The position numbers and the translations under genes were made by a program. Of a DNA stretch of 64,000 nucleotides, positions 3,176-43,216 are shown piece after piece. This DNA is from Daucus carota subsp. sativus. Taxonomy: Eukaryota > Streptophyta > Magnoliopsida > Apiales > Apiaceae. The stretch lies in NCBI RefSeq assembly GCF_001625215.2, contig NC_030384.2, forward strand, positions 24,540,527 through 24,604,526, given 5' to 3'. The stretch's first letter is position 1; each line of letters opens with the position of its first letter. Below the pieces are notes generated by a model. It was not told where the DNA came from, made no database searches, and was given only the letters and a program-made list of their open reading frames with translations.

Positions 3176-3486
3176 CATATCTTGATTGCTAGAAACAGAG
3201 GATGCAAGGTCCACAAGTAAAACAACATAGATGAATAAAAACAGAATTGTAATTTTATTCCTTAATATACTTATATAGAAAGAAATCATCTAGCTTCAGT
3301 TAGTGTTTATAATGGAAACCAATCAACCTAATTCATTTCCATGTTAATATTAATCATGTTTTGTTCACGTCTCAACATTTTACGTATTAAATTATCAGTA
3401 GCCTTTCCTTGTGAGTTTCTTTGCATATATATTATGGATGTATATGTGTAGTTTAAAGCAAGGGACTGCACCGTTTGTTAGTTAAG

Positions 3487-12032: not shown

Positions 12033-13124
12033 TCATATATAAAAGAGGATGCAGGGCGGTGACGTCTCTAGAATTGTTCGATTCACTCTTATAATTTTCT
12101 TAAATTTCGAATAAAAAATATAATTATAATTCAAAAAATCAGGTTCAAGAAATACAAAAATTAATACAATTCTTTTCTTTTTGAATTATAAAGGTAATAC
12201 AATTCTTTCCTTATTTAGGAATCCTACAAGGAATTGGAATATATTTATGTAAACTAACAATCATAGATAAAATACAATTTATATTTAAGATTTGTAAGGT
12301 AGTTAGTACAATTTTTATTTTCGATTTAGTTTTATAATTTTCTTAAATTACGAATAAAAAATAAAAGATTGTAAAGATATCAATCATTAAAAAAAAGTAA
12401 TAGCAAAAAAATTAGAGTCATAAAAGAATAATAATTTTTAACTAATAAATAGGAATTATAAAATAAAAATAGTTAATAAATAAAATAGGATATAGAAAAT
12501 ACATATATTGATTTTATGATAATGTAAATTGTTCTTGATTAGTATTGTGTTTGACGGGCACAGGCGGCCCAAACTAATTTTTATCTAAATAATAATAATG
12601 TTTCCATTAATATTATGTTTGACGGGAAAGCGGCTAAAATAATTTTTTATCTATGTTATAATATATTTTTTTGGTTAAAACGGGACCACGGTTCAAACTA
12701 ATTTTTATCCAGTTATAATTTTTAATTTTATAATAATTAGAATAATTTTTATTAGTATTGTGTTTGACAGTAAGGTGACTCAAACTAATATCTAAATTAT
12801 AATGTTGTTATTAGTATTGTGTTTGACAAGATAGCGGCTCAAACTAATTTTGATCTAAATTATAATGTTTAATTTTATTATAAAAATAATAATTATGGGT
12901 TAATATTGTATTTGACGAGAGGGCGGTTCGAACTAATTTTATTATTAGTATTGTGTTTGACAGAATGACCACTGAAACAAATTTTATACTAATTATAATA
13001 TATTTTTTATTAGTGATATGTATAACGGGAAGATGGCTCAAAATAATTTTTATGCTATTATAATATTAATTCGTATCAAAATAAAATTTATAACGCCGCC
13101 GCGAAGCGCGGCTTTTTTCACTAG
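12033..13124 (+). mobile_element. Small non-autonomous Helitron
   Basis: The 5' end reads A|TCATATATAAAAGAGGATG and the 3' end is a GC-rich hairpin (GCCGCGAAGCGCGGC, 13097-13111) followed by TTTTTTCACTAG|T. The TC start, the CTRR end and the A/T insertion site are the Helitron signature. It is 1.09 kb long with no protein coding. From 12540 on it is filled by about seven or eight degenerate units starting TAGTATTGTGTTTGACGGG and continuing to GCGGCTCAAACTAATTTT, spaced about 45-110 bp apart. Confidence 0.8.
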
Positions 13125-13366: not shown

Positions 13367-16300
13367 TTAATTCAAAACCGAGTCATACAATAGCCTCTCC
13401 AACAAAAACTCTAGAGGAGACTGAAAAATGTTGTGGCAATCCACCATGCAAGGCACCCTAGCTAACATATGGGCTGCCTTATTGGCCTGCCTTTTTAACA
13501 AAAGAAATCGCAACATCAGGACTATCATCAAGTATGGAACGACATTCATCCAACACATCCACCACTTCCAGTTTATACTCAGTTTGCCGCTTGATTGCAT
13601 TCACAGTAAGCAGTGAATTAGTTTTTATATCAGCACTGGACAGTTGCAAAGCCTGGAGCCATTTGATAGCTTCAAGAACACCCCTTGCCTCGGCTTCAAA
13701 CACTGTGACCTCTCCTGTAAGGCGCAGATTTTTTGCTTGAATAAAATCACCATGATGATTTCGAATGACCATTCCTAAAGAGAAAGAATAAGATCCAGGC
13801 ACCACGGAAGCATCTACTTTTAACTTAATTCTGTTTTCTGTAGGAGCCTTCCACCGGCAATCATCTGATCCATGATGTTGCACCTGACTTGTGCCATTCT
13901 TCATCTGTTTCTTCCTCGCTTTCTGCCACTGCACTATTTGATTGTTACTCCACTGCATTGCAATCGAAGGAGTTAGTAATTTTTGCTCCCAGACCTTTAA
14001 ATTTCTTGCATTCCAGATACCCCAAAGCACCTTAGCTAACAAGATTTTTGTTTCGTTCTTCTCTGTTGCCATCTTGTCCAGAATCCACCCTGGTGCTTCT
14101 TCAACTGTCGATGCATCAAGAGCTAAACCCATTATCCTCCAACATTCTTTCGCAAACTTACAATTCAGAAATATATGCAGAAGGTGCTCCACATCACTAT
14201 CACACATTGGACAAATAATTGGAGTGAGTATTCCTCGACTTCTTAAAAGATAGCGAATAGAGATGTTGTTCCTGCATAATCTCCACAAGAAAATTTTAAC
14301 TTTGTGAGGAACCTCTAGCTTCTATAAATTCCCTCATCCTTTCTCCTGACTTACTCGACGACATGTGCTGAAATTCGAATGTCAAAATTTGTATCCTGAC
14401 TTTACAATATATTAGCCATCAACTGCAAGCGTCCATGTAACACAATCACAAACCTGATTTCTAGGGACAGGTGTTGCTAAGATTGCCTTAGCATCACAAC
14501 TATGAAACAAGTTAGACACCTTTCGAACATCCCACCTTCTTTCACTAGGAATGAATAAATCGCACACCTTACCACCTGCAATGTGATCACACCTTGGAGT
14601 TTCCACTCTGAAATCTTTCTTCTCTCTGAGCCAAGCATCTTCAAAAATTCTTATACTCCTCCCATCACCCACAATCCATCTATACCCCTTAATCAAGGCT
14701 TCCTTGGCTTGCCACAGCCCGGAGCAAATATAACTGACACCTCCACTTCGAGTTGCTTCGAATAGAGACTTATTGGGAAAGTACCCCGCTTTATATACGC
14801 GAGCCATTAGAGAATCCGGTTTAGTAATAAAATTCCAACAATGCTTGCCAAGTAAAGCTATATTGAAGCCGTATAAATCCCGAAAGCCCAGGCCACCCTC
14901 AGTTTTTTCCATACTCATATTTTCCCAAGAGAGCCATCTAATGCCTTCCTTAATGTTGTCGCAGGAACCCCACCAAAAGCTGTTCATCATTTTTTCCATC
15001 TCCTAACTCAATGATTTCAGAAGTAAGAAGCATGACATTGCATAAGTTGGAATAGTTTGGGCCACATTTCGCAGCAAAATTGCTTTCCCTCCTCGAGAGA
15101 GACATTTCTCACTCCAGCCGTGAATTCGATTCCAAATCCTATCCTTGAGAAAGTTAAAAACTGACTTCTTTGATCTACCAATGAGGGAGGGTAATCCCAA
15201 GTACTTCTCCCCATTTAAGTCTTTTTATGAACCCCCAAAATATTTTTAATTTCCACTTGTTTGTCCATTCTAACATTAGAGCTGAAAACAAATGCTGGAC
15301 TTTTGAAGGTTTATAGATTGGCCAGAACAGAGTTCATACTTCTGCAGAATGTGCCTTACTTGAGTTGACTCCTCTTCTGTTGCTTTAAAAAAGAGGAAGC
15401 TATCGTCTGCGAACAAGAGATGTGTAACTTCCGGTGCATTCTCCGTTATCTTACACTCGTTGACTAAACCATTCGCAGTAGCTGATTTCATCAAGTGAGA
15501 TAAACCCTCAACATAAAATAGAAACAAATACAGTGATAAGGGGTCGCCCTGCCGAAGACCTCTCCTTGGCATTACAGCCCCTACTTGAGACCCATTAAAA
15601 CAAACCGTGTAGTTTACTGTTGTTACACAGAGCATTATCCAGTCGATCCATTTACAAGCAAAACCCATTTGCTCCATTCTACCTTTGAGAATAGCCAAAT
15701 CAACTCGATCATACGCTTTATTAACATGAAGTTTCAACACCACTTCACCTTCTGAGCCATTTCTTCTTCTTCTTCTCATATGATGCAACACTTCAAAACC
15801 AACCAGTACATTGTCGGTAATATTACGTCCAAGAATAAACGCTGATTGATTTTCCGAGAAAAATCCAGGGAGAATGCTTCTAACACGGTTAGCTAAGACC
15901 TTGGCAATGATCTTGTACAACACTTTACATAATGTAATGGGTCGAAGATCCTTCATATTGTCTGCATTCTCCTTCTTAGGGATTAGAACAATATTCGTGT
16001 CATTAAGCCCTTGAGGAAACGCCATGTCCCTCATCCAACTGTTACAGCTCTGAAAGACTTCTCTGCCTAAGTGTTAGGTCCAATCAGACGTAGAAGGGAC
16101 CTCCCCCATTTCTGCATGAACGTAAAAATATCTATAAGCTTCGAGACAAAGTACATAGGAGAAAGACTTTTCCAATAAGTAGTGACCTCGTCATGAAACG
16201 AATTCAGCCACGTATTTTCAAAACGGAACCTGAACTGCCTCTTCGAGTGTTTCAAACTACACAAATCAAGCTGAATCGGCCCATGATCAGAGCATATAGT

Positions 16301-18507: not shown

Positions 18508-18954
18508 TTAATCTGATTCGCATGAACCGGAGAGTTCACAGGAGGGTGTGTCAAAATCGGCTTCATCGTGCCATGCAGCTCTTGCGTTCCAACCAATATT
18601 CGGGTTTTTAAAAGGAATGTCTTTATCAGCTTTAAAAATAGCCTCATTTCTTGCAAGAAAGTAAACGTCATTGTTGGCGAATATATTTTTTATCTTTGTT
18701 TTCTGATGATTCCATGTAAAGAAACATTCCAATCCTTGGGGTGGTTGATCAAAATGCCATGCATGTCTTGCTCCTTTACCAATATCCCTCACCGGATTGG
18801 GTGGGCAATCTACTTTGAGTGGGTTGTTGTCACTAAGTCCATTAATGACAATTAGGTTATAACCTGCAGAGGAAACACATGTGAAAATTGAGGATGCAAA
18901 TGTCACTATGATTAGTATAATTAAGTTGCTTGAGAAAGATGATTGGGTTTTCAT
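18508..18954 (-). CDS. Small secreted four-cysteine protein, paralogue 1 (S-protein-homologue-like)
   Basis: 148 aa, single exon. The start is ATG 18954; the longer frame begins at a TTG and is not supported by the paralogues. Residues 1-36 form a signal peptide ending near VSSAG. The mature part has conserved blocks YNLIVINGL, KVDCPPNP, GKGARHAWHFD, a Cys-containing strand before FTWN, DVYFLARNEAIF and a C-terminal pair of cysteines (CELSGSC). The order of strands and cysteines recalls plant S1/SPH secreted proteins, but the match is weak and the C-terminal extension is extra. This paralogue is the most diverged of the four. A LINE is inserted just beyond its 3' end. Confidence 0.75.
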   Translation of the reverse strand: MKTQSSFSSNLIILIIVTFASSIFTCVSSAGYNLIVINGLSDNNPLKVDCPPNPVRDIGKGARHAWHFDQPPQGLECFFTWNHQKTKIKNIFANNDVYFLARNEAIFKADKDIPFKNPNIGWNARAAWHDEADFDTPSCELSGSCESD

Positions 18955-18998
18955 TGTTAAATATGATAACAATTACCACGGCTAACAATCAATTGAGT

Positions 18999-20330: not shown

Positions 20331-20662
20331 TGTTGGAAATTAGTCTAAACTTGTTTTTAGAATATTATTAAGCAGCATTGTAGTGTCATAGAGTAGTGGA
20401 AGGTTTCCAGCAGTTGTTTGAGTTGTGGAGTGTTTGTAGGATACAGGTAGTAGTTCCTAGTTTATAGGCATTATATCTGATGTAGTTGATATATATTTCA
20501 GCATGTAAGTGTCTCGTTGAGAAGCAATAAGAAAAAGCTAGTTTATCCAGTATATTCACTCTTCTGCTAATATCTTATAAACTTTCATGCTTCACTTGGT
20601 ATCAGAGCCTGGTGTTCAGGTTTTGTATGCCTAAATATCAAACTAGACACACAAACGTAACC

Positions 20663-21457
20663 ATGGAAATAACCAAGACAAAAGAAGGCTCTGTGGGTTT
20701 AATCTATCCAATGCTAACGAAAAGTAACTATACAACATGGTCCTTGAAAATGAAGGTTTTCATGAAGGCGCAAGGTGTTTGGGGTGCGATCGAAGGAGAC
20801 CCAAAGATTGCTGTTGATGAGAGGACGGTACAGATAGCTCTTGCAGCTATATACCAAGGTGTGCTAGAAGACGTACTGCTGACTATTGCTGAGAAAGAAC
20901 CCGCAAAGGAAGCTTGGGAAGCCATTAAAACGATGAGTGTAGGAGCAGAACGAGTGAAGGAGGCTATCGTACAAACGTTAAATGGGGAGTTTGAGTCTCT
21001 TACCATGAAGGAGACAGATTACATCGATGATTTTTGTATGAAGCTGAGCGGGATAGCAACCAACATACGGGTTCTTGGAGAAGTGATGGAGGAGTCAAGC
21101 GTTGTGAGGAAGATCCTACGCGCAGTCCCTGATAAATTCCTTCAGATAGCTTCAAATATCGAACAGTTGGGAGACATGAAAACTATGATGGTTGAAGACT
21201 TAGTGGGTCGTCTTAAAGCTCACGAGGAGAGGATAAATGGCAGGTCTTAGAGTGCAGACAGAAAACAACTTCTCTTGGCATCTCAGAATCAAAGAACTAG
21301 AGGTAATTATTTTCGTGACAAGAGTAAGATCAGGTGCTACTACTGTAACACCTTGGGTCACTATGCATCAAAATGTAGCAAATCAAGACGGGAAAGAGAG
21401 AAGAGGCCAGGAGTAAACATGGCAGTGGTCGAGGATGATGAACCATCGTTGTTATAG
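20663..21457 (+). pseudogene. Copia gag with one in-frame stop
   Basis: The likely start is ATG 20663 (MEITKTKEG); an earlier in-frame ATG lies at 20627. The first part shows the copia gag opening (YPMLTKSNYTTWSLKMK, then an AKEAWEAIK block typical of UBN2-type gag). A TAG at 21248-21250 interrupts the frame. The same frame continues to 21457 and carries an intact CCHC zinc knuckle (CYYCNTLGHYASKC). Apart from the single stop, the capsid and nucleocapsid parts are well kept. The stop is either a late mutation or, less likely, a readthrough site. Confidence 0.85.
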
Positions 21458-22970: not shown

Positions 22971-23395
22971 CCGGCTGTTTGTTTTAACTCAAAAAAAAAA
23001 GACTTTTTATTTAAAACAAAGAGGACTATAAATGATAAGTGAACTTGACTTATAAATTATTGAAAGTGTTTGGATCTCTTTTACTTATAATAAGTCAATT
23101 GAGTGTTTAGTATTTTAAATTTATAAATTAAAACAAAATCCAAATTATTAACATACAAGAAACTTTATTAATAATAAAGTTTATTAGATATTAAAAATTC
23201 AAAAACTTTATAATAATATTCAAATCACTAAAAACGCCAAAAAAATTTAGCATTTATGACTTTTAGCTTCTGGCTTAAAAAATTCAAAAGAAATATTTAT
23301 ACTTATTTTTCCAAACACTACATAAAAAGTAGAAGCAGTTTAAAGTACTAAAAAATGCGCTGAAGCAGTTAAAAAAGGTTTGCCAAACAGTCCCA
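22971..23395. mobile_element. MITE with GGNCTGTTTG-type ends
   Basis: The left end GGCTGTTTG (22973) and the right end GGTTTGCCAAACAGTCCC (23378-23394) are imperfect inverted repeats of a common plant MITE type with a central AT-rich body. The 5' TIR is degraded, and no clear target duplication is visible. Confidence 0.55.
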
Positions 23396-23869
23396 CTATG
23401 GTGCTGGACTTTCTTTAGGAAGTCCTATGAGTAAGCAACATTTGAAGGATTTCTAGAGAATTATGTGAAGTAACAATGTACAGAGGAAGGAATTGTGCAG
23501 ATAAAGTGACTCCTATACGTCGAATCTTTGTTAGACATAGCAAAATCAATATAGAACTAGTATGTTTGCCCGCGTTGCGGGTGGATCAATTAAATTCTGT
23601 TCCCAACATAACAATAGATTTTTATATTTATAAAATAAAATTTTTTCTCTGTTAATGAAGTATATTGAATTAATTAATTTATTAATTGATATGTAATTTC
23701 TATGTTAATAAACCCTTTTTTTTGCTAAGATTTTTTTATCTTGTCTTTTTTTTCTTTGTATTTGTATAGATAAATACTTGTTTGCGAATAGTTTTTTTGT
23801 TTTTTGGTGTTGAAATGTAAAGAATTTATTATTTATAATTTTTGACAATAATATAAATGAATCAATATA

Positions 23870-24118
23870 CTTCCTCCGTCCATTTTTAGTTGACACATTT
23901 GGTTTTGTGCTAGTCAAATTGACTAAAGTTTGACTGAAATTTATTAATATTTTATCAATTGACAAAATTAAAAAAATGTCACCAGAAATAACTTTTAATC
24001 TATAGATGTAATTTTCAGTTTTTTAAAATAATGATTGGGTGACTTATAATCTTTAGTCAAAATTTAATCAATTTGACTAACAAAAATAGAAATGACAACT
24101 AAAAAGGAACGGAGGAAG
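23870..24118. mobile_element. Stowaway MITE (Tc1/mariner type)
   Basis: Ends CTTCCTCCGTCC and GGAACGGAGGAAG are inverted repeats flanked by TA on both sides (23868-23869 and 24119-24120). It is 249 bp long, AT-rich and non-coding, and nested inside the Helitron. Confidence 0.9.
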
Positions 24119-24423
24119 TAATCTATTTTTTAGTACTTTCATTATATATCAGAACTCTTTTTTTTAAAAAGACATTTTTAAAAGAAATCATTGACTTATG
24201 ACAAATGAGAGTATAAGTGAATATTACACTAACTATGAAAACAATTTCAAAACCCAAAGCAATACAATATTTCATTTAAGAGACATAAGTCCTGAGATAC
24301 GTTTGTATTTGTCTCCCACTAAAGATTACTCCAGTGAGTACATTTATTTTCTGTCTAAATAAACAAATTTACACGATGAAAGCAATAATTTAACGGCGTT
24401 GATTGTGATAGCCAACAGTTTAC

Positions 24424-24494
24424 TCTGGACTCTAGCGGCTGAATTGAATATGGGATTTGTCCAAATAGCCTGTTAAAGCTCAAATCTCTGCAAA
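24424..24494 (-). pseudogene. Captured LRR exon fragment (receptor-kinase type)
   Basis: The minus strand has an acceptor TTTGCAG followed by A-GAT-TTG-AGC, reading DLSFNRLFGQIPYSIQPLES, one plant-type leucine-rich repeat (xLxxNxLxGxIPxSIxxL). The exon is about one LRR (72 bp) long with the phase used in ERECTA-like receptor kinases, where each LRR sits in its own exon. No kinase or neighbouring LRR is present, so it is a single captured exon. Confidence 0.65.
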
Positions 24495-25379
24495 GAAACA
24501 AAGCTTATATGACCCAAATAAAAAGAGAAATAAGTGCAATAATATCATGAATAAGAACTTCATACATCATGCTGCATGTAGGAGCTCACCACAACAATCA
24601 AATACATAGTACTAAGCATTGGCGGAAAGATAATCCCATAATCATAATTTTATTTAACAAAAGGGCATACTCTAAAGCTCTGCAGTGTTAAACAGTCGCA
24701 AGAAACGAACCCAAACCAATGAAGTACTCGACATATCACAGGTAGAAAAACTATATAAGTTCAGTACAAAGGTAGTATTATGCTTCATTTAGTAGACAAA
24801 ATAGATTTGGTTTAGACAAATTTATTGAGATACTCGTCCATAGTTGTGTATTTGACATAGGATAAAGTGCTAAAGTCTCCCCACCAAATGAAGGTTGAAT
24901 CTCAAAGCTGGTTTAATCTCCCTTCATAAATGTAGAATGACTGATAAATAGCAGCACATTGATCATAACAGGGGATTCTACAAAGAGTTCAACATAAAGG
25001 ACAAAAAATAGCAGCAATATGATCATTGGTCTGGTCATATTTGATATATAGTCATGCTCGAGTTGTCCAGCGTGTCATAAATGTACTGAGCCATGGCCTA
25101 ATTCACAAAATTCAGCATTGTTGGAACAATAAAAATGCTAGATCATTTTTTGTAATAGAACAAAATGGTGTGAATTCAGAAGTCTTTATTGCTACTCTTT
25201 TGTGTGCATACCTCATGGCCTCTATATCCTCACTGTCTTTAATAATCTGCTAGTGAGAAAAATAGCTGCATATTCTCTCTTTCTCTTGATGATTTCCTAC
25301 GCCTTGTAGACGAACTGAATCAGGTTCGAACGTTCTATTCCATTTAATTCTGGAACTGAGACGTGTAAGAAATTAAATT

Positions 25380-25510
25380 GACTTCCCCCATTGCTTCACG
25401 GCTCTAGAAGCATCAGCCATATCAGCCACTGATCTGTAGCCACCAATGTTCCTAGTGAGCAAGACCAATGCAATAACATCTCCATTTCTCGACTTCTAGC
25501 TTGTTGCATC
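25380..25510 (-). other. Unidentified coding-like fragment in the Helitron
   Basis: The minus strand reads NGDVIALVLLTRNIGGY followed by RSVADMADASRAVKQW and then a stop. Codon use and composition look like true coding sequence, but I do not recognise the family. Position and orientation match the other captured fragments. Confidence 0.35.
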
Positions 25511-25815
25511 CATGTAGATTATATAATATACAATAACTCTTCTGAAAGGTCGTATCTACCAACATTATGTTTATAAATTATATAATATATAGGCATACAG
25601 AGGTGTAGCATATAATACAGTACAGTTAAGTTCTGAACAGAATTTCAAAATTACAACAGGAAATGCAATCATTTTTATTAACAGATTACATCTTAGGAAG
25701 TTGCAAATTTGTCAAATTGATCAAATTAAAAATATTTTCTACTAATTTGGATGAGTAAAGAGATTCTTTAAATATTATGGAATCATGAAATCATAGTGAA
25801 GTAAAATTAAGACAT

Positions 25816-26415
25816 ACCACTCCAAGCTTGGCCTTGCTTTCTTGATTTCATCAAGTGAAAATGACATGGTAGTTAGATTCATTGCCAGAACTCCACTCAT
25901 TCAGTCCCGGATCTTATTGGCATCTTATTATCTTGCAGAACGCTACTTTTCTGGAGACTCCATCCAAAATTATAAGCAGAGTTAAACACAGTAGAAAACC
26001 TCTTAGTCAAACGCTTAAAAAAACACTCTTCATTTAGAAAATGAAATTTATTATAAACCGTTAATAACAGGAATCAAGAAAGAAATCAAGCAAATAGAAA
26101 TTTAATAAAGAAAGAAATCAAGCAAATGGAAATTTATTAAAGACAAAATCAAGCAAATAGAAGTTTTCAGTGTTATGTGACTAAAGCTGTTTGTGCAAAT
26201 GGAAATTGGGGCAAATTCTATAAATAAAATCCCTTTAACATTTTCCTAATATTTTTGTGAGTGGAAATCCTTTAACACTTTCCTAACAGGATAGGGAATT
26301 AAAAAGGACTGGAATTAATATAATTAAGATGAATATACTATAAATTATTCTTGTAAAATAATTACAAACAGAATACACATAATATATATTTACAAATAAA
26401 TTACACAAAGTATAT
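25816..26415 (-). repeat. Direct duplication inside the Helitron, copy 1
   Basis: This segment is repeated at 26583-27118 with about 765 bp offset; shared landmarks are CATACCACTCCAAGCTTG, GCAGAACGCTACTTTTCTGG and CAGTGTTATGTGA. On the minus strand it includes a short coding-like piece SFSLDEIKKARPSLEW ending at a possible donor GT. It is a tandem duplication that arose inside the element or was captured with it. Confidence 0.75.
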
Positions 26416-26582
26416 TATAATTCATTTAGACAGCATGTATAACTGATTTCTATGTTGTATGGAATCAAACTTAAATGGAAACCTTAATATCCTACCCTCA
26501 TAAAATTAATCCAAAATAAATTCAAAGGTCCACAGTTTGGGTCTTTGTATTATATATGCTTCTACACAGAGTCCAAGGAAGG

Positions 26583-27118
26583 CATACCACTCCAAGCTTG
26601 CCCTTGATTTCTTGATTTCATCAAGTGAAAATAACATGGTAATCAGATTGATTGCCAGAACTCCACTCCTTCAGCCGCGGATTTTATCGGTGTCTTACCA
26701 TCATGCAGAACGCTACTTTTCTGGAGACTCCATCCAAAATTATAAACAGAGTTAAACACAGTAGAAAACCTCTGTTAATAACAGGAATCAAGAAAGAAAT
26801 CAAGCAAATAGAAATTTATTAAAGACAGGAATCAAGAAAGAAATCAAGCAAATAAAAGTTTTCAGTGTTATGTGATCAGCTGTTTGTGCAAATGGAAAAT
26901 CCAACTACATATTAAATTGGGGCAAATTCTGTAAAGAAAATTCCTTTAACATTTTCCTAGCATTTTTGTGAGTGGAAATCCATTAACACTTTCCTAACAC
27001 GATAGGAAATTAAAAAGGACTTGAATTAATGTAATTAAGGTGAATATACTGTAAATTATTTTTGTAATTAATTTACAAATAAAATACACATAATATATAT
27101 TTACAAATAAATTACACA
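26583..27118 (-). repeat. Direct duplication inside the Helitron, copy 2
   Basis: Second copy of the segment at 25816-26415. The coding-like piece here reads FSLDEIKKSRASLEW. The copies differ by an internal deletion and scattered substitutions. Confidence 0.75.
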
Positions 27119-27178
27119 GACTTGCAGGTACTGCAAGAATTCTATCAACAGCTTATACATATCAGAGGATATGCGTGC

Positions 27179-27267
27179 CTGATCAAACAATGGATGCTGA
27201 GCTAAATAAGTAGGCACAATAGTACCGTCATTCTTGGGAATCCTCTTGAAAAACTCAGAAAATGCGA
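27179..27267 (-). pseudogene. Captured JmjC demethylase fragment (JMJ30/KDM8-like)
   Basis: The minus strand reads FSEFFKRIPKNDG, then TIVPTYLAQHPLFDQ. The PTYLAQHPLFDQ block is characteristic of the exon before the JmjC core in plant JMJ30/KDM8-type proteins. The following bases do not continue the domain and the donor position reads GC, so only part of one exon is present. Confidence 0.65.
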
Positions 27268-27415
27268 TTAGTTCTTACTCCCATTATGTGCTTAAGTAGT
27301 TTTTTCCAACCTATAGGGACATAAAACATTATTCTTTTCCAAATGTAAAGTGAAACATGTCTCAAGTTTAAAAAGAGATAAATATGTATAAATTAATAGT
27401 TATGTTATAGTTTAC

Positions 27416-27640
27416 TTATGCTAGTGTTCTTTTTTCTTCTTTTTTTGCAAAGTTTCTTGAATAATAACGCATATCGAACTCATCACATACCAGTCCTGGA
27501 TGCGAGACTGTGTAGAAGGCACGTAACATATAAACTAACGCTGCAATAACAGCGATCATTTTAATCCAAAGACATATCATTACTAAACCTGTGGCAGCAG
27601 TTAACCTAACTTGAGTTGAGCTAACCACCTTAAATTAAAA
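27416..27640 (-). other. Unidentified membrane-protein-like ORF piece in the Helitron
   Basis: An open frame reads MICLWIKMIAVIAALVYML followed by a soluble, charged tail ending KKEEKRTLA and a stop. One hydrophobic segment is clear. It may be the last exon of a captured gene; the family is not recognised. Confidence 0.35.
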
Positions 27641-28197
27641 CTACAATCCACTGTCTGAACTGGAGGTTTTGTATAAAAAATGTGCTATTAAATCGATAAG
27701 ACTGTATAGTTGTATAACATGAAATGTCTATAGGTGATTAAGACACAACACTTGATAATTTTAGCATATGTATATGACCTAATGACACCCAATCAATTCA
27801 GTAACATAGAATTTATACCTTCAGAAATTATTTAAAGCCGAATTGCATGTGCTACTTATCAAAAATAGGACATTTATATATTTATATATATAAAGGTTTG
27901 CAGATACTATCCAAAATTTAAGGAACAAAAAATAATGAAACTTTCTATTCACAGTACACAAACCTAGAAAGTTATTTGCCTATATTTTATTGCATAAAAT
28001 AGAAGATTTATACCACTCCATGTAAACAAAAGTAGATGAATAGTTGCCAGACTTGGTATAGAGCTGACGGTGATGATAGTCATGGAAATCAGCTCTGGGA
28101 ATGAATCAAACATACTTGTGAGGTGGAATATACAATAAGGATAATGAACAAATATAGGAACAACTATAAGAAAGCTAGATGTGAGAATTATACTAAC

Positions 28198-28480
28198 CCC
28201 CCATATAAGGGCAAGAAGTTTGAAATGCTCCAGGAGAAATGGTAACCACAATGTGCTTCAGCAGTTTCGAGGACTCTCACTACATCCACAACCACAGAGT
28301 GATCAAATGGGGTCCAGTGATGGCAGGACCAGTAATAGTAGCAAAACCAAGAAACAGTATCTCATCTGGATGAGCATATTTAGAATTCAGTCCAAAGGGT
28401 ATTGCATACCTGAATATCGAGAACCCTTTATTAAACACTGTGGACATGCTTGTACAATCATTTTGGATTATAAGAGGCAG
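28198..28480 (-). pseudogene. SMO2: Captured SMO2 (sterol 4-alpha-methyl oxidase) fragment
   Basis: The exon at 28409-28198 on the minus strand reads PFGLNSKYAHPDEILFLGF, then ATITGPAITGPHLITLWLWM and, after a one-base deletion, VRVLETAEAHCGYHFSW to FLPLYGG. These match the fatty-acid-hydroxylase region of plant SMO2, an iron enzyme of sterol demethylation in the ER. It is bordered by an AG acceptor and a GT donor. Traces of the preceding exon (LYKHVHSV) lie at about 28440-28475 with stops. The frameshift, stops and missing exons show it is a relic. Confidence 0.85.
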
Positions 28481-29329
28481 CACAAGATTAATAATTAAAT
28501 TAATAGATGAAACAATATGGAACAAACTCATGGATTGTTATGTGGTCAGAATTAACATGACCAAAATGAAACTCATCTTTACCAAATAACAAATACGGGC
28601 AAAGAAAAGTAATCACAATTTACAGGAGCAAACAACAAATAGAGAACAAAATCTTATACAAAATTACAATAGGCAGAGGTATCGAAAACAGAGATGGGTC
28701 ACAGAAAATTACCCAACTGTGGAGGCGACGATTTGAGAGTACTCCGTTTCAACTCCGGAGCCGGCGAATGAAGATTACTCCGTTCCAAAGAATCCATCAA
28801 TTACGAATCTAAGAAGACAACCAAAAGAAGATAAGAGTTTTGTGCAAAAACTACAAATCAAATACTACAAAAACAAACAATTGATACAATGAATGGAGTC
28901 ATTTTGGATTAAACCGAAACGCAACAAAGAACTGAACGGAGAAGATCTTTACCTGCCGCAGTTGCAATGTAAATCGAACAAAATTTGAAGGAGATGAAGC
29001 TTTACCTAGAACAATTGCAATTAGTTTTGAAAATCTCGATTGTATCCGATATGAGAGGGAGAAAAGCGGGAAGAAGGGCGGAAACTTTACCCTAAAACAG
29101 ATGAGCCGATGAGTCTGATTTTTTGAAAGTAGATGTTTAGAGTAGAAACTTGATTTGAGCTGATACAGATACGGAAAGACCGATGAGCGACACGTGCGAG
29201 TAATCAACGGTTTGGAACGATTGAACGTATACTTCAGTGGCGTATTTGTAATTAGATGAGTTATAGTGTGGGTGAAGTAGTCATTCTAAAGGGATTTACG
29301 CAACAGGCTTTATAATATAGATAGATAGA

Positions 29330-31305
29330 TTTGCATGGAGGTATAAAATATCAAAAGAACAAGTCAACTGTGAGGCCCGGCGAAGTTTTATAGGATAAAA
29401 ATGTAGCACCATAAATTACTAGATGTTCTGTCGAAAAAAATAAAAAGATTACTATATGAGGGAGTTTGAGCGTTGAAGTTAAACAAAGGATTTTGACTGA
29501 AATAGATGCAAAAAGTATGGATGAAATGCTTAAAACAAATGTTGGCAGTTACAAATTCTAAAATGCACGTGATGGCAAGTAATTTCAACCAACGCTTCCA
29601 AGTGTTCTGTGCCTAAAGATAGCTATTTTTTACGTTATTGACATAAAAAATCGACTTAAGAAATAGTCATATAATAAGATTCAGTTAGATACGATCAAAA
29701 GTGATATATATAATATATTTCGATTCATAATATGGATGGATATTCAAATAATGAATTTAATTAAACACTAATAATCCATGCCACAAAAGTAGTTTTTAAT
29801 ACATGTAAACTATCACAAACGAGAAAAGAAAAACTAATTCCGTCTTAGGGTTTGCGCCTCCATTCATTGTCTTGTCTTTCTACAAGTTAGTTGAGGGACT
29901 TTACTGGGTTTTTTCTCTGGTGAAAAGCCCCAATCCTTTTATTTTCTTTCAAATGATCAAATTTCAGTAATAAATAAATTTTATAACATTACAAGGAGTT
30001 CAGAAGATATGAAGTTTTAAGTATTTATTTCATCATAGATTCCATGTGCACCATGTTATGAAGACGTACATGAAGACAAAGATTCGAAGAACCGGCCACA
30101 ACTCAAATGTTTTATTGATAGAGGATATTCGATTTAGTTAGGCACAGATGAACCTACATTTGTATGTCATCTATTAAAATTGAATATCTAACATCAAAGA
30201 AGGTGATTATTTAGCCAAGAGATGATCAAGACAAAGATTTAAAGATTAAAGAAGACGGTGCAGCTGAATAGAAGAATTAATGGGTTATCTATTCATTGAT
30301 CAAAATATTTATACTAATTGATTAATTGATGTATTAAATTAATTCACAAAGAATTAGTTTAATTCTTGAATTTCTATAATTAAATAAATAAGTGAAAAAT
30401 AATTTATTAATTATTTATGGATATATTTATATTAATTTAATTTAATTGATGCATTAAATGTCATTGTCTTGCTGGGATTCTCAACAAGATAATCTATTGT
30501 CTTGTCTTGTTAGAAATATCGGTAAGACAATTTGTTGTCTTGCTCAGCACAACTCGATAAGCAATTAATTGTCTTGCCAAGACATGCATGATTGTCTTAT
30601 CGAGCTCTTATTAATTATCCTACCGAGCTCCTGTCAATTGTCTTACCGAGACAGGTCATCAATTGTCATACCAAGTGCGTTGCTGATTATATTGCAAGCT
30701 TAAAATGGATTGTCTTTCTAAATTGGCTGGTGTAGACAATCAGATTGTCTTGCCGCCTGACACCCGATGGGACATTTGGATTCTCTTATCGAACCTGGTG
30801 ATTTTTCTTACCGAGTTTTAATTGTCTTGCCCATGCATGTTTTATTGATTGTCTTGCACTGTTATTTGGCAATTAAATTATCTTAATCAATTGTCTTACC
30901 AAGACAAACAATTGTCTTGCAAGTATTTCCAAATCTCTATATATATATGAGATGGTTGTCTTTATTTCTTGTATTCAACAAATTATAATACTCTAGATCA
31001 ATTTGCGTACACTTGCTTATTGTTATATTTACAGACTTTATGTGTTTGATCACTCGACTGTTTTATTGCTAAACTAGTATACTTAATGTCAAATTTATTA
31101 TAGATATTTTAGTTGGCATTAAAACAAAACCTTGATTTTGGTAACGATTTTCAATTTTAAATAACTTTATATTTGAACTTTGTCCTTTAATTAATTATTT
31201 ATGGTTGGTTTAAAACAGTAATATTTTTAATTAGATTATTCTGCGCAAAAATTGTACGATTGTATTCAACCTCCCCTCTACAATCATATATGGACCTAGC
31301 ACCAT
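29330..31305 (+). repeat. Degenerate LTR-like repeat rich in TTGTCTTACCGAG motifs
   Basis: No gene is seen. From about 30455 to 30925 the motif ATTGTCTTGCC or ATTGTCTTACCGAG recurs more than ten times at irregular spacing. The end (31258-31300) reads GTATTCAACCTCCCCTCTAC, then TGGACCTAGCA, which resembles the 3' end of copia SIRE-type LTRs (usually a CCCCCCTTCTAC block then GGACCTAACA). I take it as a decayed solo LTR or LTR fragment. Its 5' border is not visible. Confidence 0.45.
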
Positions 31306-32194: not shown

Positions 32195-32674
32195 CTATTT
32201 TGAGCAATTGTCTATATCGATATCGCAGGGGTCTGTGTTAAACTGGGTTTCGTTCATCCAAAGACCTCGTAGTTTCCAGTCACCATTCTTCGGATCATAA
32301 GGCATGTCTCTATCAGCTAAGTAAATGCCCTTATTTTTTGCAACTAAGTAAACATCTTCAGCGGCTGGTTGATTATATTCGCTGAATAGACGATCCATGA
32401 ATGTTTTTCTGCCATTCCATGTGAAGTTACATGCTAATGGATAAACTCCTGGAGGGGGAAGGTGATCAAAATGCCAGGCATTTCTTGCACCTTTCCGAAT
32501 GGTCACCGATGGATTGGGTGGGCAATCTACTTTTAACGGCTTGTCGTCATCGAGTCCATGGGTAACAACAAGGTTATAACCGGCAGAGGAAACACATACG
32601 AAAATTGCAAAACCTACAGTCACTATTAAGGTTAGTATAAGTAAGTGGTTTGAGGGCGATGATTGAGTTTTCAT
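32195..32674 (-). CDS. Small secreted four-cysteine protein, paralogue 2 (S-protein-homologue-like)
   Basis: 159 aa, single exon. The start is ATG 32674 by alignment with the paralogues. Residues 1-34 form a signal peptide ending VSSAG. The body shows YNLVVTHGL, KVDCPPNP, RKGARNAWHFD, ACNFTWNGRKT, DVYLVAKNKGIYLADRDMP and the C-terminal CDIDIDNC. It is longer than paralogues 3 and 4 through inserts around the second cysteine and before DVYLV. Four cysteines are kept, enough for two disulphides. A plant S1/SPH-like fold is a weak inference. The gene shares promoter blocks with paralogue 1. Confidence 0.78.
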   Translation of the reverse strand: MKTQSSPSNHLLILTLIVTVGFAIFVCVSSAGYNLVVTHGLDDDKPLKVDCPPNPSVTIRKGARNAWHFDHLPPPGVYPLACNFTWNGRKTFMDRLFSEYNQPAAEDVYLVAKNKGIYLADRDMPYDPKNGDWKLRGLWMNETQFNTDPCDIDIDNCSK

Positions 32675-32852
32675 TATCAAACGTGATCATTTATAGTGTC
32701 TAACAATCAAGTGAGTTATATAGTAAATATTTGCTAAATTTAGGACACTGTGTTTGAGATTGAGAGTTATTATAGTGAGGTGCAGGTCCAAAACCTACAA
32801 CATGAAAGCTTAAACGAGTGAAACTAGTTGAACCCTTAGAATGTAAAAGAGG

Positions 32853-34526: not shown

Positions 34527-35985
34527 ACATTAATTACTCTTATTAATAATTATGTGTAACTCCTTTGCATATAACATTCACATAAATTTGTAACTCCTAA
34601 TAATAATGAATAACTTTCTATTTATTTATTTATGAAAAGAAAGTAAAAAGTATCACATAAAGCCCATAGCAAGGAGTCCATTTTATACATCGAAAGTGTA
34701 GCAAATATAAAATATATTCGATTTATAATATAGGAATCTTTGTATAATGTTCAAGAACAAAATGTTAATATGATAATTTTATCTCTGACGACTGGTCATG
34801 TTATTGTTTTATTTTAACTATTATAAAAAATATAATATTTTGTAAAAATCACGTGGTTGATTCAAAGTTTTTTTAAAATATGTATTCAAGGTATGTCGTC
34901 GTTTCATTTGGCTCAAAATTTCAATTTGACTATTGATAAAAAATAGAAAACTTTATGATTTAATTTGTTTTATTAAAATAATTACTTAATTTCTTTTCAC
35001 TTTGATTACAAGATGGTACGTGGTGCAACTACTTGGTCTTCAAGACTTCAACTTATAATGAGTTGGATATGTATATATTATTTTTTTTGTTTAATGTTTT
35101 AAAACGACGATATTTTGAAAAATATATAGTATAGAATGATACTTGTTTTATGAAAATAACTTGATTTTCAAAATTATTTTTCTAAAAAAATTAAAAAAAA
35201 TATAGAATAGTTTGGAAAACATTTTCCTACGAGCCTTAATCTGAAATTAGTGTTCAAGACACATCCATACTAAAGACAGAAAACAAAGAAAATATTAGAA
35301 CCATATTTTCAATGGTTGTGTCATATTGTTATTACAGCAAGATACAAAATGACAGGACCGAATCTTGTTGTATAATATGCTCAGTCTCGAAATCCCTGAA
35401 TCTCAAATTTAAATCAAACATATCGAACACTCTCTATTCTATTCTTTCATCTTAGATAAAAACATATTTATTTTCTTAATAATGATGGACCTTCCCGGCT
35501 GAAGGCCCGACAGGGTTTATGTTACCTTTCGCATGAAATGGGATCACGTTTGCAGGGGTCTTTGTTAAACTCGTCTTCGTCGTACCATCGAGCAGCCATT
35601 CTCCAGTCACCACTCTTTCCATCATTAGGGACGTCTTGAGAGCCTCTAGCAATGCCATCATTAAGTGCGAGATAGTAAAGGTCTTTATCGCCCAACACAT
35701 TATCTATCTCTGTTTTTCTTCCATTGGAGGTAAAGTTACATGCTAATGTTGGAGGATTGTTATCAAGATGCCATGTATTTCTGCTTCCTTTACCAATGCT
35801 CACCGCTGGATTGGGTGGGCATTCTACAAGCAAAGGCTTGCCATGTTCTAGCTGATTGATGACAGTAAAGTTAGCACAGGAAACAAATTTCAAACTTGCA
35901 AAGCCTACTGTCACTAGTAATGTTAGTATAGCTAAGTGGTTTGAGGGGGTTGATTGGCTTTTCATTGTCAAATCTGATACTTTTT
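34527..35985 (-). repeat. Tandem duplication unit 1 (holds paralogue 3)
   Basis: This stretch and 36073-37590 are related over their whole length, including non-coding flank: TTATAATATAGGAATCTTTGTAT, the GATTCAAAGTTTTT block and TGAAAATAACTTGATTTT are shared. The offset is about 1.6 kb. Confidence 0.8.
35522..35965 (-). CDS. Small secreted four-cysteine protein, paralogue 3
   Basis: 147 aa, single exon. ATG 35965 is chosen because paralogues 2 and 4 start at the same place; an upstream in-frame ATG at 36037 would add 24 residues and block the signal peptide. Residues 1-31 form a signal peptide. Blocks: FTVINQLEHGKPL, VECPPNP, GKGSRNTWHLD, ACNFTSNGRKTEIDNVLGDK, LYYLALNDGIARG and CKRDPISC. It is the closest relative of paralogue 4. 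Its promoter differs from the others: the duplication ends about 20 bp before the start codon, so the TTGACC block is missing and a TCTATATATAGA TATA box (about 36004-36015) is used instead. Confidence 0.8.
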   Translation of the reverse strand: MKSQSTPSNHLAILTLLVTVGFASLKFVSCANFTVINQLEHGKPLLVECPPNPAVSIGKGSRNTWHLDNNPPTLACNFTSNGRKTEIDNVLGDKDLYYLALNDGIARGSQDVPNDGKSGDWRMAARWYDEDEFNKDPCKRDPISCER

Positions 35986-36072
35986 GTTTATAGGATTTAA
36001 CCCTCTCTATATATAGACCAAACATCCTTTCCTCCACCCCATAATAGGTAACTGCATAATAAATTTAATTAC

Positions 36073-37590
36073 ATTAATCACTCTTATTAATAACTTTGTG
36101 TAACTCCTATTCATATAATTAACATTCACATGTTTATAACTTTCTATAGTAATAAATAAAGAAAATAAAGTAAAAAATATATTACATAAAGTGGGTAGCA
36201 AGGGAGTCGATTTTATACCTAGAAAGTGTCACAAACATAAAATATATTAGATTTATAATATAGGAATCTTTGTATCATGTTTAAGAGCAAAATGTTAATA
36301 ATATAATAATTTTATATTTGACAACCAGTCATGTTATGGTTTTATTCTAATTATTATATAAGATATAATATTTTGTAAAATCACGTGGTTGATTCAAAGT
36401 TTTTTGTAAATTTTTATTCATGGTATGTAGTTGTTTCATTTGGCTTAAAAGTCCAAATTGTTTATTAATAAAAAATAGAAAACTTTATGATTTGATTTGT
36501 TATATTAAAATAATTACTTATTTTCTTTTCAATTCGATTGCAAGGTGGTGGCGTGGTGCAATTCTCCAAGACTCCAACTTAAAATGATCATATTATTATT
36601 TTTTTTCAATGTTTTAGAAAATGACGATATTTTGAAAAATACATAGTTACAGAATGATACTTCTTTTATGAAAACAACTTGATTTTTAAAAATATTTTTC
36701 CAAAAAGAAATGAAAAAAAAAATATGAAAGGTTGGAAAACATTTTCTTATAAGCCTTAATCCGAAATTAGGTTTCAAGACATATCCATGCTAAAGACCGA
36801 AAACAAAGAAGTTATTAGTAAAAGACGTACGGATTATGTAACTTAGTCGAAAAAACAAACACAACAAAAAGATACATATAATAAAAGTGTATTGCTAAGA
36901 AAATATCAGAACCATATTGTCAATGGTTGTATCATGTTATTACAGCAAGATACAAAATGACACGGAAGAATCTCACCGGACCAAATCTTGTTGTATAATG
37001 TGCCCAGGGTTCGAAATCCCTGAATCTTAAATTTAAATCAAACATATGGAACACTCTCTATTCTATTCTTACATCTTAGACAAAAAGATATTTATTTTCT
37101 TAATAATTGATCGACCTTCCCCATTACCTTTCGCATGAAATGGGATCACGTACACAAGGGTCTTTGTCAAAATCATCTTCGTCGTACCATCGAGCAGCTG
37201 GTTTCCAGTCACCACTCTTTCCATCATTAGGGACGTCTTGAGTGCCTCTGGCAATGCCATCATTAACCACGAGATAGTAAAGTTGTTTATCGCCCAACAC
37301 ATTATCTATCTTTGTTTTTCTGCCATTGGAGAAAAAGGTACACGCTAATTTGTTCGGATAGTTATCAACATTCCATGTATTTCTTCTTCCTTTGCCAATG
37401 CTCACCGATGGATGGGGTGGGCATTCTACTCCCAAAGGCTTGCCATGTTCTAGCTGATTGATGACGACAAAGGAACCACAGGAAACAAAATTCAAACTTG
37501 CAAAACCTACGGTCACTATGAATGTTAGTGTAACTAAGTGGTTTGAGGGAGATGATTGGCTTCTCATTGTCAAATTTGATAATTACCTCG
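36073..37590 (-). repeat. Tandem duplication unit 2 (holds paralogue 4)
   Basis: Partner of 34527-35985. A further fragment of the downstream flank of this unit is found at about 40660-40870. Confidence 0.8.
37124..37567 (-). CDS. Small secreted four-cysteine protein, paralogue 4
   Basis: 147 aa, single exon, ATG 37567; the longer frame starts at a TTG. Residues 1-31 form a signal peptide. Blocks: FVVINQLEHGKPL, VECPPHP, GKGRRNTWNVD, ACTFFSNGRKTKIDNVLGDK, LYYLVVNDGIARG and CVRDPISC. Protein similarity to paralogue 3 is very high in the second half and lower around the second cysteine. Expected to be secreted; function unknown. The S1/SPH-like assignment is tentative. Confidence 0.8.
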   Translation of the reverse strand: MRSQSSPSNHLVTLTFIVTVGFASLNFVSCGSFVVINQLEHGKPLGVECPPHPSVSIGKGRRNTWNVDNYPNKLACTFFSNGRKTKIDNVLGDKQLYYLVVNDGIARGTQDVPNDGKSGDWKPAARWYDEDDFDKDPCVRDPISCER

Positions 37591-41113: not shown

Positions 41114-43216
41114 ATGGGGAATTCGGTATCTTCTGCATATATTTTCAAGAAACATAAGAAGCCTTTGCCCATTGAGACGAAGTTCTCTTTACCCTCTCCG
41201 ATCCCTTCATGGTCTCCAGGTAACATATTTTTCTTCCATGGGCTGGAATTTGATCATTGTCGTCTTAGTGGTCCATTATATAAGTCGTTTGACTTTTTAT
41301 ATATAATTTTTAGATGTTTTGATCATATAACAAAATATAATATTTTTATAAATTTGTTCTATGAATAATGTAAAACATAAATATGAAAATTTAAAAAATA
41401 CCAATTTTAGATATGTGGCCAAATCTCGTAAAGATGCGTGTGTAAAATTAAATAACTTATATAATGAATCGGAGGGAGCATGCAGGCTAACCTCCCTTGC
41501 TAATTTGGATTTGTGCCCCTAAAAAGAATTTACTGATTAAATTATTTAATTAGGAGTTGATAATATTATTAAATTGTCGACCACAACATGGTTTCTTGAT
41601 AAAGCTTGTAACTATTCATTTTCATGTGCTAATTTGAAACATATTTTCATGCAAAAGGTGACGGTTTCGCAAGTGGAACTATTGATCTAGGAGGTTTGCA
41701 AGTGTGTCAAGTCACAACTTTCAACAAAATTTGGGCAAGCCATGAAGGCGGGCCGGACAATCTTGGTGCCACAATCTATGAGCCCTCTTCAATACCAGAA
41801 GGATTCACTATGCTTGGTTGCTACGGCCAAGCTAACAACGAGCCCCTATTCGGCTTTGTTTTAGCTGCTAAACAAACTGACCCCGAAAGCGATATACTCA
41901 AATCTGCAACTGATTATACACTTGTTTGGAGCAGTGACTCGTCGAAAATTAAGCAAGATGGTGTGGCCTATGTTTGGCTTCCAGACCCTCCTGATGGATA
42001 CAGAACTATGGGACATGTGGTCACCACGACACCGGATAAGCCTGCCCTTGACAAGATCCGATGTGTTCGAGCTGATTTCACTGCTGATGCGGAGACTGAG
42101 ACGTGGATTTGGGGACTAGGGAAGGACTTGAATGTGAATGGATTTAATGTTTTTGCAATTAGGCCGAAAGACAGAGGAACTCAGGCTCTAGGGGTGAGTA
42201 CAGGCACATTTTTGGCTCAAAATGGTGGGACTGATGTTTCGTCATTTTGCTTAAAAAATGTCGAAGCGAATTTATCAGCTATGCCGAATTTAACTCAACT
42301 TCGGGAAGTTATGGAGGCTTATTCCCCTGTTGTGTATTTTCATCCTGATGAAAACTATTTTCCCTCGACTGTCAACTGGTATTTCCAGAACGGGGCGTTA
42401 TTGTTTTCGAAAGGGAACGAATCGAACCCGACACCTGTCGAATTCATGGGATCGAATCTCCCGCAAGGCGGATCAAACGATGGCGCATTTTGGTTAGGCC
42501 TTCCGAATGACAAGAATGCGAGTGAGAGGATCAAGAAAGGCGATTTGCAGAGTGCTTCCGCTTATTTACACATAAAGCCAATGTTGGGTGCCTCGTGCAC
42601 TGACATTGCGATATGGTTATTTTACCCGTTCAACGGACCGGCTCGGGCAAAAATCGAGATCGTCAATATTTCGCTAGGCAAAATTGGGGAGCATGTCGGT
42701 GACTGGGAACATGTGACACTACGAATTAGTAATTTTAACGGAGAATTACGAAGTGTTTATTTTTCGGAACATAGTAAAGGGCAATGGGTGAGTGCACCTC
42801 AGCTCGAATTCGAAAATGGCAACAAGCCCGTGACATATTCGTCGTTAAACGGACATGCATTTTATCCGAAAGCAGGGCTTGTTTTACAGGGGAGTGGAGG
42901 GATTGGAATAAGGAATGACAGTGCAAAGAGCAAGAATGTGATGGACACTGGCCGGAGATTTTCCATCGTTTCAGCAGAATACTTGGCCGCGAGCGGCGTC
43001 GTGGAGCCGCCGTGGCTGAATTATATGAGGAAATGGGGGCCAAAAATCAGCTATGACATTGCTGAGGAGCTGAAGAAAGTTGAGAAGTTGTTGCCTGGTT
43101 TTCTAAAGAAGGCGTTTGTAAAGTTGGTGAAAAATCTTCCGAGTGAAGTGTTGGGGGAGGATGGGCCTACTGGGCCCAAAGTCAAGTCTAACTGGACCGG
43201 GGATGAAAGTGTATAA
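41114..43216 (+). CDS. DUF946 / Vps62-like plant protein, copy 1
   Basis: Two exons, 41114-41219 and 41658-43216, encode 554 aa. The first exon codes a short basic leader ending LPSPIPSWSPG; the second starts at GDGFASGTIDLGG. The protein fits the plant DUF946 (Vps62) family (PF06101) over its length: EGGPDNLGATIYEP, GYRTMGHVVT, YSPVVYFHPDE, GEHVGDWEHVTLRISNF, and the C-terminal GPTGPKVKSNW. No signal peptide is visible. A vacuolar sorting role is suggested only by the name of the yeast relative. The intron carries one Stowaway-like end (GGAGGGAG at about 41470) without a partner. It is tandem with the gene at 45765. Confidence 0.9.

Follow-up and report, generated by a model that had tools for sequence, protein, structure and literature searches.

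Is the stretch of carrot DNA between a TC start and a hairpin-CTAG end one transposon that has captured pieces of host genes, or are its two ends and its gene-like interior unrelated to each other? The stretch lies in a 64,000-nucleotide segment of the Daucus carota subsp. sativus genome (C4:24540527-24604526, hereafter the window, to which coordinates without a contig refer), and an earlier reading made from the sequence only (the sequence-only reading) had described it as a Helitron with exon pieces from at least three unrelated genes. Searches of the genome (441,086,747 bases, 11 contigs) revealed a non-autonomous Helitron of 5,773 bp on the minus strand, from 29329 to 23557 (element coordinate q is 29330 minus the window coordinate). 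It is almost certainly a member of a mosaic, gene-capturing family, which carries sense pieces of five genes and has been copied as one unit.

Helitrons begin with TC at the 5' end and finish with CTRR at the 3' end, with a G/C hairpin about 10-12 nt upstream, as described in passages of a published study (PMC4683698). The element starts with TCTATCTATC at 29329, likewise in its second copy and in relatives, and finishes with the hairpin CCCGCAACGCGGG, 8 nt and CTAG at 23557, the relatives being alike. In a scan for hairpins before CTAGT, a strict filter (stem length times GC fraction of at least 5) returned two 3' ends in the window, the element's own and one ending at 13124 on the plus strand, compared with none in 50 simulated windows keeping the same neighbour-base frequencies; a looser filter returned three compared with a mean of 0.76. 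The other strict end (13098-13124, plus strand) reads GCCGCG-AAG-CGCGGC, 8 nt and CTAG before T. No terminal inverted repeats were found, as the three inverted repeats of at least 25 nt in 23000-30000 all lie within 23657-24120, shorter ones having been checked by eye; by the same inspection the two termini are not complementary. The longest stop-to-stop frame in the element is shorter than 150 amino acids, and the element therefore needs a protein in trans.

A second full-length copy at C2:44314082-44319850 differs from the window copy by 18 substitutions and 3 indels (99.5% identity). Its ends are those of the window copy and its flanks are unrelated, indicating that the two ends travel together. 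The whole-element search scored the best 40 of 1722 candidates, and its counts are lower bounds. When the two flanks of this C2 copy were joined and used as query, two empty paralogous sites were found running through its junction, at C3:64365590-64365817 (94%, L051) and C9:3930049-3930263 (88%, L052). On the 3' side the host resumes exactly past CTAG, with T, and on the 5' side the C2 copy is about 12 bases longer, in TATC units. We take these bases to be three additional TCTA units at the element start, following host sequence ending in CTA, which would make the C2 copy an insertion between A and T. Against both empty sites it lacks a target duplication, and the window copy is also flanked by A and T. 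The ends given in the sequence-only reading (A followed by TC at 29329, hairpin-CTAG followed by T at 23557) are thus upheld by the sequence, the 3'-end scan and the second copy. That reading had proposed gene capture as known from plant Helitrons and named what would overturn it, namely no other copy with both ends, an empty site not ending at these borders, or ends from different elements; all three were checked and none overturned it, the empty sites fitting exactly on the 3' side and within a TATC repeat on the 5' side.

Between the termini, nine blocks match five donor genes with open exons in the same genome, which encode an SMO2, a JMJ30/KDM8 protein, a WS/DGAT protein, a phenylcoumaran/isoflavone-reductase-like protein and a malectin/leucine-rich-repeat (LRR) receptor kinase (Table 1). 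All nine are sense both to the element and to the donor, as had been claimed for the pieces then seen on the element strand; they are not independent, since WS/DGAT alone accounts for four and JMJ30 for two. As a control, three further 5.8-kb parts of the window were searched against the six donor loci and gave a single weak match (65%, 1.35e-5), compared with eleven rows for the element. The element thus holds fragments of five host genes whose donors lie elsewhere. Capture as proposed stands, with the number of donors raised from at least three to five, and the donor search suggested at the time led to intron-bearing genes at other loci. The SMO2, JMJ30 and LRR identities were supported by protein family or solved-structure matches in addition to the donor loci. 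The further pieces, at least three, then left without a name now include the four WS/DGAT blocks and the last exon of the reductase-like gene. For segment A (28974-28467), no donor was identified among 42 genome matches, many weaker matches not being inspected. For the whole window, Rfam gave no match at gathering scores and a tRNA scan was empty.

The SMO2 donor is an SMO2-type gene (C2:49630268-49631173, in locus L013), which aligns with its introns included over 834 bases at a K of 0.052. Pfam FA_hydroxylase was matched by the spliced SMO2 pieces of the element (4.4e-9) and by the joined exons of the donor gene (1.9e-26); the gene is presumably SMO2 rather than SMO1. The piece had been correctly recognized, but rather than a single exon it forms one block, in which two exons are complete and intron sequence is included. 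The first exon is cut, and its donor site has gone from the element in a deletion of about 69 bases. SMO2 sequence is found at five genome places (7 match rows, 5/5 candidates scored), two of them genes and three of them copies of the element's sub-lineage. Two matches were taken as chance, one to a capsid component by the SMO2 piece in phmmer (0.19) and one to PH_33 in Pfam (0.076). The JMJ30 donor (L045, C1:30363500-30371000) has Cupin_8/JmjC exons as well as a KDM8 N-terminal domain (1.4e-56). The element's JMJ30 piece matches JMJD5 in the PDB at a modest E of 0.0042, and 17/17 among the matches listed are JMJD5/KDM8. Four other Cupin_8 loci (L039, L041, L042 and L044) were rejected as they show no DNA match to the element, leaving L045 as the JMJ30 source at hand. 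Both splice borders of the JMJ30 exon are kept, the donor site being GC in the donor gene too; together with four SMO2 sites, they bear out the earlier statement that several borders survive. The SMO2 frameshift and the two JMJ30 stops are present in both full copies.

The WS/DGAT donor (L016, C4:48688500-48697500) matches Pfam WS_DGAT_cat (6.3e-7) and WS_DGAT_C (1.9e-9), its candidate first exon having no Pfam match. In the element the parts of one WS/DGAT exon are separated and misordered: the part due before q3814 sits behind the LRR piece, whereas both the L016 gene and the related element L017 have it in front. In addition, one WS/DGAT block and a spacer are each duplicated inside the element. 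The reductase donor (L018, C1:24590000-24598000) belongs to the NmrA family by two exons (1.4e-14 and 2e-10), and is presumably of the phenylcoumaran/isoflavone-reductase-like subfamily; the element's own reductase piece alone has no Pfam match. Receptor-kinase loci with one-LRR exons were found on C5 (L046) and C4 (L037), the malectin part being recognized by Pfam in L037 and by resemblance in L046.

Table 1. Features of the Helitron in element order, with window coordinates, strand and element coordinates (q).
Feature	Window	Strand	q	Remarks
Helitron 5' terminus, TCTATCTATCTATATTATAAAGCCTG	29300..29329	-		host A at 29330 precedes; variable number of TCTA units, otherwise same start in relatives
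Segment A	28467..28974	-		5' part common to family members; 87-89% at C7:22028185, C7:22971120, C5:25698852
SMO2 (methylsterol monooxygenase) fragment	27589..28468	-	862-1741	two complete exons, the end of another and intron sequence
SMO2 exon	28198..28409	-		AG acceptor and GT donor intact; frameshift of one base
Next SMO2 exon	28014..28094	-		acceptor AG and donor GT kept
JMJ30/KDM8-like block, intron sequence included	27122..27528	-	1802-2208	exon 27310-27179 with two stop codons
WS/DGAT exon block	26570..26773	-	2557-2760	89% to L016; internal duplicate of 25800-26003
Second JMJ30 block, mostly intron	26439..26588	-	2742-2891	89% to L045 4867-5018
WS/DGAT exon and following sequence	25532..26035	-	3295-3798	82% to L016
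WS/DGAT next exon block	25024..25516	-	3814-4306	87% to L016 4081-4572
Last exon of phenylcoumaran/isoflavone-reductase-like (NmrA family) gene and downstream sequence	24564..25007	-	4323-4766	84% to L018; one stop inside
Single-LRR exon of malectin/LRR receptor kinase	24414..24600	-		88% to L046 (C5:10992500-10996500); solved LRR kinases
Displaced upstream part of WS/DGAT exon of 25516-25024	24309..24397	-	4933-5021	81% to L016 3981-4075
Nested MITE, presumably Stowaway-like	23864..24120	.		inverted repeats; similar sequence at at least 19 other genome places; absent in related L020, L021 (junction)
Helitron 3' terminus	23557..23581	-		hairpin CCCGC-AAC-GCGGG, 8 nt, CTAG; host T at 23556

The element belongs to a family whose members share parts only. 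Among 30 loci (L009-L038) scanned for 3' ends, eight share the tail exactly and have the hairpin either unchanged or longer by one pair, and two more are one base off. When the last 311 bases of the element were used as query, 20 of the 25 genome matches extended to the terminal base (21/21 candidates scored). The captured pieces recur in other combinations in L011, L012, L014, L015 and L020-L023, whose 3' ends are identical or one base off. The related L011 and L012 on C6 carry WS/DGAT, reductase and LRR pieces with no SMO2 match, and as intermediates only relatives without SMO2 were seen. Single pieces match further genome places, where the ends were unchecked. L010 (C9:6393624-6394861) is a 3'-truncated copy, matching q1-1236 at 99.4% with other sequence beyond, and no Helitron 3' end was found on the element strand in the fetched 9.5 kb by the filter used. 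Its match ends at the first base of an SMO2 exon (q1236), perhaps by chance. Members also occur on C7, and there are near-identical pairs: L034 and L035 (C2:49294926 and C2:37244652), on one chromosome, are 99.5% identical over 3,134 bases, and L011 and L012 are about 98% identical, the first 112 bases of L011 having no match in L012. The nested miniature inverted-repeat transposable element (MITE) is taken to be Stowaway-like from its ends. Passages of a carrot study describe this genome as rich in Stowaways, with a mean length of 254 bp (PMC8227079).

Gap-free distances (K, exon and intron mixed) between element and donor are 0.052 ± 0.008 for SMO2, 0.105 and 0.107 for JMJ30, 0.127 and 0.120 for WS/DGAT, and 0.132 for the reductase, and the two copies differ by 0.003. 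Between the element and L011 on C6, K is 0.062 ± 0.008 for WS/DGAT, 0.059 ± 0.012 for the reductase and 0.093 for the LRR piece. These values suggest that the JMJ30, WS/DGAT and reductase pieces were gained earlier (K 0.10-0.13), that SMO2 was gained later and only in the element's sub-lineage, and that the copying is recent. Given the shared WS/DGAT, reductase and LRR set of L011 and L012, the divergences place the WS/DGAT and reductase captures before the L011 split, and SMO2 was probably captured at or after it. The LRR distances (0.088 to L046; 0.156 to L037 over 78 bases) fail to order the LRR step. With a rate of 7e-9 changes per site and year, SMO2 would have been captured roughly 4 million years ago and the element last copied roughly 0.2 million years ago, exon and intron being mixed and the rate assumed.

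We propose that the RepHel protein of another Helitron moves the element in trans; for the Helitron_like_N domain, scoring 150 of 344 candidates yielded at least 168 genome matches. The pieces would have been gained in steps, SMO2 last, as the divergences indicate. Rolling-circle read-through would have brought them in, or else template switching or repair, and recombination between family members may then have shuffled them. An unlikely alternative is that the mosaic arose by segmental duplication or as filler of double-strand-break repair and was mobilised later by Helitron ends that flanked it by chance. The split WS/DGAT exon with its displaced part, the duplicated block and spacer, and the position of the youngest piece near the 5' end would agree with such an origin. 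However, the pieces recur in other combinations in elements whose 3' end is identical or differs by a base, which fits build-up inside a mobile family, and all nine donor blocks are sense.

The element most likely has no protein product, as expected from the SMO2 frameshift, the two JMJ30 stops and the stop in the reductase piece. The kept SMO2 and JMJ30 splice borders, together with the sense orientation of all blocks, might instead point to a domesticated chimeric gene under selection, but this is very improbable, as the same frameshift and JMJ30 stops occur in both full copies and no stop-to-stop frame reaches 150 amino acids. Any effect of the element would come from non-coding or chimeric transcripts or small RNAs, and a spliced chimeric RNA, as suggested in the sequence-only reading, is possible given the kept borders. 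Some gene-capturing (Pack-) Helitrons give such transcripts, which do not define the group. Chimeric and alternatively spliced transcripts of maize Helitrons are documented in passages of an earlier study (PMC4528327). It seems improbable that transcription starting in the 5' part of the sense mosaic, followed by splicing at the kept borders, gives chimeric transcripts or sources of small RNAs that act on the five donor genes; if so, sterol synthesis, JMJ30, wax esters, a reductase and a receptor kinase would be affected. The view that the ends come from different, nested or adjacent Helitrons around ordinary pseudogene sequence could draw on the 5' part standing alone, 3'-truncated, at C9:6393624 and on family members having only parts in common, but it is scarcely credible and was rejected, because the C2 locus holds the element end to end in unrelated flanks and two paralogous empty sites pass through that junction.

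Several points weigh against a stepwise-capturing Helitron, the reading we prefer. The 5' border is inexact, the empty sites reading ATA and CTA there within the TATC repeat, and no empty site was found in the genome for the window copy, whose joined flanks match solely themselves. The donors are known from open exons, not full gene models, and outside SMO2 their identities are 73-89%, so the true source may be an unsampled or lost paralogue. No Helitron_like_N match was tied to the element's termini, a RepHel with the same termini not having been sought. The errors of the SMO2 capture distance and the L011-split distance overlap, and SMO2 may have been lost in L011. Finally, read-through predicts captures at the 3' end, yet the youngest piece lies near the 5' end; recombination or repair may therefore be the real route.

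The Helitron lies within a minus-strand cluster encoding a family of small secreted-looking proteins (18508-18972, 32195-32686, 35522-36064 and 37124-37582). They are reminiscent of plant self-incompatibility S1 proteins; those at 18508 and 32195 gave no Pfam match at 0.001. Other neighbours are two Vps62-family genes (41633-43216 and 46587-48215, plus strand), a reverse transcriptase frame (RVT_1, 15276-16073, minus strand), by its look part of a broken non-LTR element, and a Copia-type gag frame (20531-21250, plus strand).

The element provides a clean and datable case, a single assembly containing the donors, the relatives, a recent second copy and the empty sites of that copy. It allows tests of the capture mechanism, 3' read-through against repair or recombination, and such mosaics could pass for genes in annotation. 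By title and abstract, no account of gene-capturing carrot Helitrons was found among the papers listed from the open literature; the Nature Plants carrot paper names a Helitron within a gene. The literature passages at hand contained no statement on a sense-orientation bias of Helitron captures. The element adds an unusually complete case to a process already known from maize, stepwise multi-gene capture. In the passages on maize helA Helitrons, fragments are captured stepwise, 0 to 12 per element (Dong et al. 2011, PMC3288121); like the carrot element, these have a CTAG 3' end, fragments from different chromosomes in one element and relatives differing by added fragments, whereas the carrot case, in another host, offers, for a single element, its donors, empty sites and an exon part out of place. 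In Brassica napus, also a dicot whose Helitrons hold exon fragments, 35.25% of gene-capturing Helitrons have two or more fragments (PMC11986588), but that work is an exon-matching survey, with no single-element history in the passages concerned. As described in part of the Helraiser/Helibat study (PMC4778049), the hairpin acts as terminator and its bypass leads to read-through capture of sequence flanking the 3' end. The carrot element shares the hairpin, whereas Helraiser is an animal element and the youngest capture in carrot lies away from the 3' end.

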